NCBI GenBank assembly: GCA_016870515.1 | Contig: VGBL01000001.1 | Coordinates: 1-64,000, forward strand | Direction of reading: 5' to 3' | DNA: 64,000 bases | Origin: Actinomycetota bacterium | GTDB taxonomy: Bacteria; Actinomycetota; Actinomycetes; S36-B12 | Part shown: positions 29,066 to 52,782 of the stretch, one piece after another | How the letters are laid out: each line of letters opens with the position of its first letter | Numbering within the stretch: the first letter of the stretch is position 1 | Position numbers and translations under genes: made by a program | Notes under the pieces: generated by a model | The model's input: only the letters and a program-made list of their open reading frames with translations | What the model was told of the DNA's origin: nothing | Databases searched by the model: none

Positions 29066-29137
29066 GCCGCCTTAGCTCAGGGGTAGAGCAACGCACTCGT
29101 AATGCGTAGGTCCGGGGTTCAAATCCCCGAGGCGGCT
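29066..29137 (+). tRNA. tRNA-Thr (anticodon CGT)
   Basis: A complete cloverleaf. The acceptor GCCGCCT pairs with AGGCGGC, the D arm is GCTC-AGGGGTAG-AGC, and the anticodon stem ACGCA/TGCGT encloses the loop CTCGTAA (anticodon CGT). The T arm is GGGG-TTCAAAT-CCCC. CCA is not encoded. Its 3' part is repeated 1.7 kb downstream. Confidence 0.93.
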
Positions 29138-29140
29138 CCG
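29089..29140 (+). repeat. att-like direct repeat, left copy (3' part of tRNA-Thr)
   Basis: 52 bases from the D-arm end through the tRNA 3' end plus three flanking bases. They match 30816-30867 with a single G/C difference at 29115 versus 30842. Integrases commonly use tRNA 3' ends as attachment sites and restore the tRNA on one side, which fits the intact copy here. Confidence 0.75.
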
Positions 29141-29150
29141 TAGATTTCAT

Positions 29151-29342
29151 GTGGTTTCGGCTGATTCTTTACGCGGTATCGACACCGTGCAGATCGTGCT
29201 CCACGAAGGGTCGCTCACCCAGATCCACCTCACCATCCCCGCCCGTGAGGTACTCACCGACGACGACCTCGAACTAGTAGCCGGATGCGCCTGGGGTGGT
29301 GGTGAAGATTCCCTTTGTCATTCCTCGCGTCGGTCAGGCTGA
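29151..29342 (+). CDS. Small open frame just after tRNA-Thr, possible gene remnant
   Basis: 63 codons from GTG. The stretch 'TVQIVLHEGSLTQIHLTIPA' then 'REVLTDDDLELVAGC' looks like real protein, but the end ('GGGEDSLCHSSRRSG') does not, and there is no clear ribosome site. It may be the truncated front of a lost gene inside the tRNA-bracketed segment. The 80 bases after it, up to the DUF805 gene, show nothing I can support. Confidence 0.3.
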   Translation: MVSADSLRGIDTVQIVLHEGSLTQIHLTIPAREVLTDDDLELVAGCAWGGGEDSLCHSSRRSG

Positions 29343-29420
29343 GTTGGGTGCAGCCCATCGTCGGTGCCATCAATCGCGGTACCGACTCCATCCGGAGGGC
29401 AGCCGCTATGCGCTCGCACG

Positions 29421-29891
29421 TCACTCACCGAAGCGGTTGGGTCCGCGCGTGCCGGGGAGCAGGGCGAAGACCAGTAGGACGATGCCGCCGATGCCTGAGA
29501 GCAAACCGAACACGGCCCCCGCGGCAAACAGGACCTGATTCTGCAGCGCCGAAAGGGCGAAGAGGACGAAGCCGAGAACGCCGCTGGCGATGGTCAGCAG
29601 ATACCACCACCCGGACTTGCCGGAGTCGTGCAGACGTCTGAACCATACGGCGCTGACCGGAAGTATGGTCACCAGGAACCACACGAGCGTGGCGATGATC
29701 CCGACCTGAGCGAGTGCGCCCCACCTCTGGGGGTCCGCGCTCGTGGAGATGCCCACCATCGAGATGGTGTAGAGCACCGTGGACACAATGACCATGAACA
29801 GGTAGAACCACCAGAACTCCGAGCGGCTCGCCCGACCACGGAAGTTCACGTAGTTCTTGAAGACGGTCGTGATGGCCTGGCTAAAACTCAT
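29421..29891 (-). CDS. DUF805 family membrane protein
   Basis: 156 residues with four predicted helices. The family motif is clear at the N-terminus ('VFKNYVNFRGRASRSEFWWF') and in the loop 'RLHDSGKSGWWYLL'; it ends 'LLPGTRGPNRFGE'. DUF805 proteins are inner-membrane proteins of unknown role, often near phage or stress genes. The ATG at 29891 is preceded by GGGAG, so the open frame further upstream is not used. It lies inside the segment bounded by the tRNA-Thr repeats. Confidence 0.85.
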   Translation of the reverse strand: MSFSQAITTVFKNYVNFRGRASRSEFWWFYLFMVIVSTVLYTISMVGISTSADPQRWGALAQVGIIATLVWFLVTILPVSAVWFRRLHDSGKSGWWYLLTIASGVLGFVLFALSALQNQVLFAAGAVFGLLSGIGGIVLLVFALLPGTRGPNRFGE

Positions 29892-30086
29892 GCGAACTCC
29901 CTGGTCATGGCGTCCGGCGCGCCCAATGCTCCGGAGCCTAGTGCCACCCCGCCCTTCCGTAAGGGCTTTCGCCGCAGCGGTGATCTCAATGAGTTGTTGG
30001 CGCGTTCCGCGCGGGCACAGTGCCCCTCGTGCCATACTGGCTGCCTCATGGATGCGCGGTCTGTGGGTGACGCGAAGGGCTGGCAA

Positions 30087-30518
30087 ATGTCCGACCGGCC
30101 ACAAAGACCAGGGCGAGGCCTCGTCATCGCCGGAGCGATCCTTACCGGGATTTCGGTGCTCGTCACGGTCTCTGCAGGTGTCGATTCGATCAGGGCCCTC
30201 ACTGCGGAGAGGACGTACGGTATTGCCTTCTTCGGGATCCTTCTCTATTGGACGATCCTGGCAGCGCCGACCTGGTACGTCGGTGTGCCGCTCCTGGGGA
30301 TCGGACGAACTCAGCAGCGTGGACCGGTGAAGTACTCCGTGTGGGCCTGGGTGGTCGCCCTGGCAGTACTGCCCGTTGTTTTCGTGGCAACACCCCTAGC
30401 CTCCGTCCCATCTGTGGCCGCCGCCGCATGGCTGGTGTGGGGCAAGCCCGCTCAGACGCCCCCCGTGCAGGCGGATCCTGGCGCAGACGTCAAACACGCA
30501 CGGGACATCGGCGCCTGA
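30087..30518 (+). CDS. Hypothetical four-helix membrane protein
   Basis: 143 residues: basic start ('MSDRPQRPGRG'), then four hydrophobic segments ('LVIAGAILTGISVLVTVSAG', 'GIAFFGILLYWTILAAPTWY', 'SVWAWVVALAVLPVVFV', 'PSVAAAAWLVWG') and a polar tail. AAGGG precedes the ATG at about 9 bases. An in-frame ATG at 30048 is possible. No family recognised. It is divergent from the DUF805 gene and also inside the tRNA-bracketed segment, so it may be cargo of a former element. Confidence 0.6.
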   Translation: MSDRPQRPGRGLVIAGAILTGISVLVTVSAGVDSIRALTAERTYGIAFFGILLYWTILAAPTWYVGVPLLGIGRTQQRGPVKYSVWAWVVALAVLPVVFVATPLASVPSVAAAAWLVWGKPAQTPPVQADPGADVKHARDIGA

Positions 30519-30538
30519 CCAGGCCGCGGGGTATCGCG

Positions 30539-30667
30539 ATGACGATGAGGACGACCTCAAGGCCACTCAGGCCAGAACCTGAAGGCGTCCCTCGTCCGCT
30601 ACCTCAGGGAGGCGCTGGGGACTGGTTGGACGAGAGCATTCGCGAGCAAATCATCAATGAGCTATGA
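30539..30667 (+). pseudogene. Short open frame, probable fragment
   Basis: 42 codons ending 'GDWLDESIREQIINEL'. Another frame directly upstream reads 'LKASLVRYLREALG', which would join it after a one-base shift. That suggests a small frameshifted gene, perhaps an antitoxin-like or regulatory peptide. Family not recognised and expression unsupported. Confidence 0.25.
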
Positions 30668-31032
30668 AGTTGTCTGGCCCGGGCCCCGCTCGCTACGTGG
30701 ATTCCGCTGAAAACATCCTGACAACCTTGGCCAGGTCAGTCCCTGGTAGTCGGTGACACTGGCAACCACAGATCCCTCACAGACAATCACGCAGAACCAC
30801 CCCAGGAGACTCCTTCAACGCACTCGTAATGCGTAGGTCCGCGGTTCAAATCCCCGAGGCGGCTCCGATTCCCCTCACGATATTGTGCGCCCACAACCTG
30901 ATCGAAGGTCAGGAGCCCGAAGGTAGTCTCAGCTCCCACCGCTCCCTTTCGTGACTCCTCCACCCTTCGGTCGGTCGCGAGGAAGCCGCGCGCGGCCGTG
31001 GGCCATTGGGTGGACTCATGGCCACCGGACCC
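30668..31032. other. Intergenic region holding the right att-like repeat
   Basis: No convincing gene on either strand. The only structure I can support is the partial tRNA copy at 30816-30867. The sequence after it contains an AT-rich patch ('cacgatattgtg') and otherwise ordinary GC-rich DNA up to the end of the methyltransferase gene. Confidence 0.5.
30816..30867 (+). repeat. att-like direct repeat, right copy (partial tRNA-Thr)
   Basis: Copy of the tRNA-Thr 3' part (anticodon arm, T arm, 3' acceptor strand) without the 5' half, so it cannot fold as a tRNA. One G-to-C change disrupts a T-stem pair. With the left copy it bounds 1,675 bases. Confidence 0.75.
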
Positions 31033-51282: not shown

Positions 51283-52782
51283 CTATGTGCACACCGTGCC
51301 TGGCCCGGGCAGGACCCCGTCGATCAGGAAGGCATCGATCGCCTCGTCGATGCAATCAGAGCCCTCGCGGTACGCCGTATGACCGTCTCCGTCGCGCACG
51401 AGAAGGGTCGCGCTTCCCAACTGCTCGACAAGCACCGGCCCCCAGGCGATCGGAGTCGCGGGATCGTGGGTCGTGGCTACGACGAGCATGGGCGGTAGCG
51501 GCGACGTGGGCAGAGTTGGGGGCACGACGGGCACCGGCCAGGTCGCACACGGCAGATTGCCCCAGGCGAAGTACTCGCCGAGCACTGGCAACTCGGCCTT
51601 CCACACTTCAGCGAGCTCGCGGGCCGACTCAGCGCCGCCTGACACCGGGCGATCCAGGCATGACACCGCGTAGAACGCCTCACTTGAGTTATTGGCGTAG
51701 ACGCCATTGGTGTCGCGCCGCATGCGCGAGTCGAGCAGTTGCTGGAGGGTGATGCCCACGCCCTGACTCAAATCCGACAGCGCTAGGCGCAGGTTTGGCC
51801 AGTCGGTTTCCGGCGAGTAGAGCATCATCAAGATGGCATACGTCGCGGCACCCTCGGTGAGAGGTCGCGCATCGTCGCCGGTGGGTGCGGGCTCAGAATC
51901 GAGGGCATCGAGCCAGCCACGAAGCTGCGTGACAGCACGCGCTCGATCCCCCGCAAAGGGGCAGTCGTCTTGACCCAGGCAGTCGTCGATGAACCGCATG
52001 AGCGCATCCTCGAAGCCTCGGGCCTGTTCGAGTGACACCTCCTCCGCCGTCAACTCGGCCGGGAGTGGGCCGTCGAGCACGAATCGTCCGACGTTTTGGG
52101 GGAAGAGGGCCGCGTAGGTGGCCCCTAGGTGGGTGCCGTAGGACACCCCGAGGTAATCGAGGCGCGACTGGCCGAGTGCAGCTCGCAGCACATCCATGTC
52201 GCGCGCGGCATCAGCCGTCGACATGTGCTCGAGGAGACCCGGCACGGGCGCCGTGCAGGCCGCGACGAATCCCTCGGCCAGCCGCGCATTGTCTGCCTCT
52301 TCCTTTGGTGCATCCGGAGTGCCGTCGGAGGCGACGAGCGCATCGAGATCGGCGTCTGTTCCGCACTGCACTGGAGAGGACTCGCCCACCCCCCTGGGGT
52401 CGAACCCAACGACGTCGAAACGGTCCAGGACCGCGTCGGAGACGACGTATTGGCGTGCCGCTGCGTATTCGGTGCCACTTCCTCCCGGGCCACCTGGATC
52501 GAGGACCAGCACTCCCTGACGATCACCGGCCGCCGGCACGCGAAGGAGCGCGAGTTCGAAAGTGACGCCTTGGGGCTTGGCGTAGTCAACCGGCACCAGC
52601 AGACGCGCGCATTCGTCGTCGCCACACGGCTCCCACTCCAGGATTTGGGAGTAGAAGCGCGCGAGATCGGGGACGGGAGGGGCGAAAGTCGGGGTCGCAG
52701 TCGCATCAGCGGCCCACGGAGGGGAACAGGCAGCGAGTGAGATGACGGCGGCTGCGGTAGCCGCGATCCGTCGAGCCTTCAC
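51283..52782 (-). CDS. Alpha/beta hydrolase lipoprotein, TAP-like peptidase
   Basis: 499 residues with a lipoprotein signal ('[20 protein letters not shown]'). The hydrolase core has '[14 protein letters not shown]', '[16 protein letters not shown]' and the nucleophile '[14 protein letters not shown]'. The C-terminal TAP-like segment has '[17 protein letters not shown]' and the catalytic His in '[15 protein letters not shown]'. It is a cell-surface relative of the secreted hydrolase at the left end of the window and probably trims peptides or esters outside the membrane. Confidence 0.87.

Follow-up and report, generated by a model that had tools for sequence, protein, structure and literature searches.

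The duplicated 3' part of tRNA-Thr and the genes between its copies

The window, i.e., the whole stretch of 64,000 nucleotides that was analyzed, contains a single tRNA according to ARAGORN, an intact tRNA-Thr(CGT) whose 3' part recurs further downstream on the same strand as a 52-nt direct repeat (Table 1). The two copies are 98 % identical, their starts are spaced by 1727 nt, and they enclose a segment of 1,675 bp (29141-30815). This duplication with one mismatch had been pointed out in an earlier sequence-only reading of the locus, with which both ARAGORN and the repeat search agree; chance cannot account for a match of 51 out of 52 positions. The downstream copy covers the tRNA from position 24 up to its 3' end, including the anticodon loop, plus one additional G. 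Since its only mismatch (G to C at 30842) disrupts one base pair of the T stem and the copy lacks the tRNA's 5' third, it is a fragment and not a working tRNA.

Table 1. Features at the tRNA-Thr(CGT) locus of the window.
Feature	Position	Strand	Basis
tRNA-Thr(CGT), intact; 3' part forms the left attachment core	29066..29139	+	ARAGORN
Left copy of the 52-nt core (attL side)	29089..29140	+	repeat search
IS481-like insertion-sequence end remnant	29149..29173	+	match to left end of the C52 IS (L012) and to L023 sequences beside tRNA-Thr
NHLP-leader RiPP precursor gene, 3' part, start missing	29180..29342	+	65-75 % aa identity to precursors
DUF805 membrane protein gene, intact	29421..29891	-	PF05656, E 7e-27
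Four-helix membrane protein gene (start possibly 30087)	30048..30518	+	C4 paralog
Putative integrase arm-type direct repeat (P arm), 11-nt period	30708..30728	+	arm-pair scan, genome pattern search
Displaced tRNA-Thr 3' fragment (attR core), one mismatch	30816..30867	+	repeat search, core search in genomes
Possible arm-end relic of an older, second element (AGTCTCA type)	30898..30936	+	local alignment to L022

Two intact genes lie within the segment, one for a DUF805 membrane protein, as the Pfam match bears out for the earlier reading, and one for a four-helix membrane protein without a match in Pfam, PHROG, or NCBIfam. Both have paralogs on contig C4 of the same genome, with 95 % amino acid identity and a dN/dS of 0.09 for DUF805, and 77 % and 0.25 for the four-helix protein; given these ratios, purifying selection has kept both proteins in one of the two lineages or in both. 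At the C4 locus (L031, G000:C4:146845-148421, compared to window 29425-30455), the paralogs occur in swapped order, as if circularly permuted, and with another gene between them. The idea that the segment is a recent copy of the C4 locus was rejected based on this arrangement and on DNA identities of 92 % and 82 %. The passenger genes are host-type membrane-protein genes that were carried along, and the GC content of the segment (0.61-0.65) resembles that of its flanks, so that composition, which had been proposed as a check, does not mark it as foreign.

Arm-type repeats upstream of the fragment

Approximately 109 nt upstream of the tRNA fragment, a direct repeat (TGAAAACATCC/TGACAACCTT) was found that resembles the arm-type sites of integrases; the p value for a pair starting at -109 is 0.0036. 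In relatives, tRNA fragments are likewise preceded by 8-nt direct-repeat pairs with a spacing of 11-12 nt. Using a threshold of 7 of 8 matches and a start 100-125 nt before the core, such a pair is present at 23 of 35 fragments and at none of 44 intact tRNAs, as compared to a chance expectation of 0.8 on average and 5 at most (300 trials of first-order Markov resampling); even though position range and spacing were picked after sequence inspection and some of the 35 fragments stem from related records, so that the test is not fully independent, the count lies far above the null. When 59 genomes were searched for the arm pattern of the window with up to two mismatches, only two occurrences emerged (30708 and G006:C44:113, the latter in a congener), each preceding a tRNA-Thr fragment by about 108 nt; the pattern had been composed from the two sequences later found, their identical placement not being built in. 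Moreover, the sequences preceding the two fragments align better than all of 500 shuffles (18.4 versus a maximum of 16). Judged by form, spacing, and position, these repeats presumably bind an integrase.

The presence of an arm-type repeat where 23 of the 35 fragments of relatives have one argues that the scar is an attachment site and not a tandem copy of the tRNA. A tandem duplication of the tRNA region, after which the second copy lost its 5' part, would account for the 98 % identity of the copies, but their similarity is confined to the stretch from tRNA position 24 to the end of the core, and in relatives many fragments begin at positions 24-34 and have arm repeats at a fixed distance, which makes this scenario extremely improbable. 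Of the findings that the sequence-only reading had named as speaking against integration (relatives with the segment that lack the second repeat, or a simple tandem tRNA duplication with deletion), neither was encountered. A second copy of the arm pattern would be expected at the tRNA side and is absent from the window; likewise, no arm pair was detected at the tRNA end of the segment, which is a weak test, as many intact tRNAs in relatives also have no detectable pair downstream.

A recurrent landing site in relatives

Of 59 related genomes, 48 contain the core, and many of them harbor additional 3' fragments. Candidatus Nanopelagicales and unclassified actinobacteria are the prevailing labels among genomes with the core (a few labels, for example, Bifidobacterium breve, look like mislabelled assemblies), and we take the window to belong to Nanopelagicales. 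Most fragments start at tRNA positions 24-34, and several in the same orientation may share a contig (four in L017, two in L018/L054, two in L014). Integrases of the PF00589 family adjoin tRNA-Thr or a fragment in L027/L085, L022, L067, and others, and in the three cases named here the C-terminus of the integrase faces the tRNA. Consequently, tRNA-Thr(CGT) is a recurrent target across Nanopelagicales relatives for an insertion of a known kind. The earlier claim of site-specific integration is supported by arm-type repeats at canonical distance, by integrases at the same tRNA, and by pairs of occupied and apparently unoccupied sites in congeners, which are described below.

Among closed core-to-core intervals, including that of the window, 17 of 20 are without an integrase match, one contains an intact integrase (L022, about 3 kb) and two contain remnants; the count was made by hand and is biased to short intervals by short contigs and loci, and genome-wide PF00589 scans agree with it for the genomes covered. 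Passengers of these intervals in relatives include P450, formate-THF ligase, AbiE proteins, and pentapeptide-repeat proteins. In L020 (G029), an integrase-less 1.8-kb interval with an AbiEii gene has near-identical arm repeats (CTAATAACCCGCTAATAAC) at both ends and, taken singly, speaks most strongly for movement in trans. G011 contains an integrase remnant with arm sequences similar to those of an integrase-less interval in the same genome.

All three observations favor another scenario for the window, in which the segment has always been a small non-autonomous cassette of core, arm sites, and passengers that was moved in trans by integrases of other elements at the same tRNA. Intervals seen on short contigs are, however, biased to small ones, many of which may be decayed too, and the left end of the window's segment looks damaged rather than minimal (truncated gene, IS end, no arm), so that we regard this scenario as rather unlikely for the window. 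For the tRNA as a whole, we tentatively consider that tRNA-Thr(CGT) of Nanopelagicales might host short integrase-less cassettes (core, arm repeats, and one or two genes) that are moved in trans by the integrases of rarer autonomous elements with the same arms and thereby build up arrays.

Occupied and apparently unoccupied sites

In G003, an intact tRNA-Thr is followed by the flank that comes after the tRNA fragment in G006 (L039, L038). The upstream flank of the window's tRNA matches that of G001 (85 % over 130 nt), where it is followed by the tRNA and tandem 59-bp units; the same 59-bp unit is found on another G001 contig just before the ortholog of the methyltransferase gene that follows the fragment in the window. 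The window's segment has no DNA match in G001. With C148 and C311 being separate contigs of this congener, we infer that the segment is missing from this position in G001, which would then offer a nearly empty version of the site.

These comparisons also bear on the possibility that two loci were artificially joined at the repeat. The assembly comprises 61 contigs (2.42 Mb), a second, identical tRNA-Thr(CGT) is located on contig C52, and the contigs of relatives often end at this very repeat. Nevertheless, the upstream flank matches G001, and the G001 ortholog of the gene after the fragment adjoins a tRNA-Thr-derived repeat that also follows the tRNA-Thr of G001. As both sides of the segment are thereby tied to the tRNA-Thr site of G001, they fit a single locus, and an assembly artefact appears very unlikely.

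The apparently damaged left end

Only 10 nt past the tRNA begins the end remnant of an IS481-like element, which runs into the start-less RiPP precursor gene. Its alignments to the left end of the IS in L012 and to L023 score 19-21, as compared to a mean of about 8 and a maximum of 16.5 for shuffled sequences, with a match of only ~25 nt; the transposase of this IS combines rve and IS481 leucine-zipper domains. The stretch that follows the tRNA had first been read as an arm site, which was rejected because it matches the end of the insertion sequence on C52. The RiPP fragment has 65-75 % amino acid identity to precursors in G002 and elsewhere in the same genome, two of which match TIGR03793 above the cut-off, the window fragment by itself being below the threshold. 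In line with the sequence-only reading, no integrase was found between or near the repeats, including the tRNA-proximal end where one would be expected (PF00589 scan of the whole genome and local profile). A single deletion beginning within the IS could explain these features of the left end and would have taken an integrase from its usual place.

The IS end fused to a start-less gene and the missing tRNA-proximal arm favor decay. The alternatives offered earlier, i.e., a decayed or a small non-autonomous element, were the right ones to consider, and the first of them is preferred, with the qualification that the two main genes have not decayed.

Proposed history of the segment

We consider it probable that the segment goes back to an integrase-mediated insertion at tRNA-Thr that decayed at its tRNA-proximal end. 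A tyrosine-integrase element would have entered the 3' half of tRNA-Thr(CGT); as its attachment site presumably duplicated the tRNA sequence from position 24 onward, the tRNA would have been rebuilt and the original 3' fragment displaced to its present position, with an arm-type integrase-binding repeat retained at the far end. Later, an IS481-like element may have landed just after the tRNA, and a deletion from inside this IS could have eliminated the body of the IS, the arm on the tRNA side, presumably also the integrase gene, and the start of the RiPP precursor gene. The outcome would be a 1.7-kb remnant that can no longer move but retains two intact passenger genes.

The origin by insertion is well supported. 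Besides the duplicated core, the arm repeats, the IS end next to a truncated gene, and the selection on both passenger genes, the proposed history is backed by the second tRNA-Thr locus on C52, which shows the order tRNA, complete IS481-like element, and truncated integrase, and by L027/L085, L067, and L022, where integrases converge on tRNA-Thr or its fragments at a short distance. The account of decay, including the former presence of an integrase gene and its removal by a single IS-linked deletion, is probable and not proven. Against it stands that no integrase remains to prove autonomy and that other short intervals at tRNA-Thr are also integrase-less, as would suit a native non-autonomous cassette.

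Relation to known systems

Genomic islands targeted to tRNAs have been mapped by Islander (PMC4383910). As in these islands, a rebuilt tRNA is followed by a 3' fragment in the same orientation, the core spans the anticodon loop, and arm-type repeats lie near the core, which in the window applies to the distal end, none having been found at the tRNA end. In contrast to them, the segment is shorter than 2 kb and has no integrase inside, so that the filters of Islander would reject it; for the latter reason, we file it as a remnant or cassette and not as an autonomous member.

Also comparable are the additive flexible-island cassettes that Ca. Actinomarinales carry at tRNAs (PMC7771536) and, in Ca. 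Methylopumilus, an island with a 3' repeat of tRNA-Lys (PMC10872708). Like these, the segment is small, ends in a partial-tRNA direct repeat, and has counterparts at the same tRNA in related genomes. They differ in belonging to other orders and using other tRNAs, and arm repeats are absent from the available parts of their descriptions. Tycheposons of Prochlorococcus, cited in PMC10872708 as elements of 4-200 kb with a tyrosine recombinase, similarly carry cargo at a tRNA; with 1.7 kb and no recombinase, the segment falls outside this group. The segment is likewise no prophage or phage satellite by its content: it has no phage structural or packaging genes, its sole PHROG match being a membrane protein (the DUF805 gene), no phage records match it, and 33 nt of the core have no exact match in IMG/VR viral contigs.

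On its own, the segment is a fresh example of an already known type of insertion and an ordinary scar. The comparison with relatives, however, reveals a heavily used landing site in a group of freshwater actinobacteria, and a partial search of the literature yielded no paper on tRNA-Thr cassettes in Nanopelagicales. Furthermore, the fixed spacing between arm repeats and a tRNA fragment provides a sequence test by which such insertions can be recognized after loss of the integrase, whereas island finders that require an integrase overlook them.

Further observations around tRNA-Thr

Downstream of the fragment, 39 nt (30898-30936) align to the arm end after the L022 fragment with a score of 19 (shuffles 8.5 +/- 1.5, maximum 15.5). 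If this match holds, an earlier element may have occupied the site first; its far end, i.e., CAGTCTCA repeats, was not found in the window. A homolog of the gene at 51283-52782 (reverse strand) directly precedes tRNA-Thr in several other genera; in the window it lies 22 kb away on the opposite strand, and the neighborhood of the tRNA has therefore been rearranged.

On C52 (L012), the tRNA-Thr occupies positions 250-323, with the IS481-like element and integrase remnant alongside (351-2105), and a further tRNA fragment lies on C49 (L011/L033, 2642-2690). Both contigs carry a common cargo gene, which has 861 aa on C52 and is truncated on C49, and may therefore represent the two termini of a single island. 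IS481-like ends begin ~5-11 nt from tRNA-Thr 3' ends at five places (window 29149, L012 332, L011 2620-2642, and in L023 both beside the tRNA and beside a fragment), which suggests that this element prefers the spot just after tRNA-Thr as its target.

Beside tRNA-Thr, G001 (L040 on C148, 4332-4450, and L036 on C311) and G016 (L111 on C58) have units of 59 to 76 bp in tandem. These contain the last 15-19 nt of tRNA-Thr plus GGGAGGAGCGAAGCGACGGCTCCC, and a related unit occurs in G012; the 59-bp unit of G001 folds no better than its shuffles. In L017 (G032:C28, 638-6445), an array of four tRNA-Thr fragments on a contig without integrase encloses genes for a cytochrome P450 and for formate-THF ligase, the latter complete. 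Finally, NHLP-leader RiPP precursor genes are arranged in tandem in L109 (G002:C242, 382-1510), with a period of 315 bp, 2.8 copies according to TRF, and four tblastn matches.
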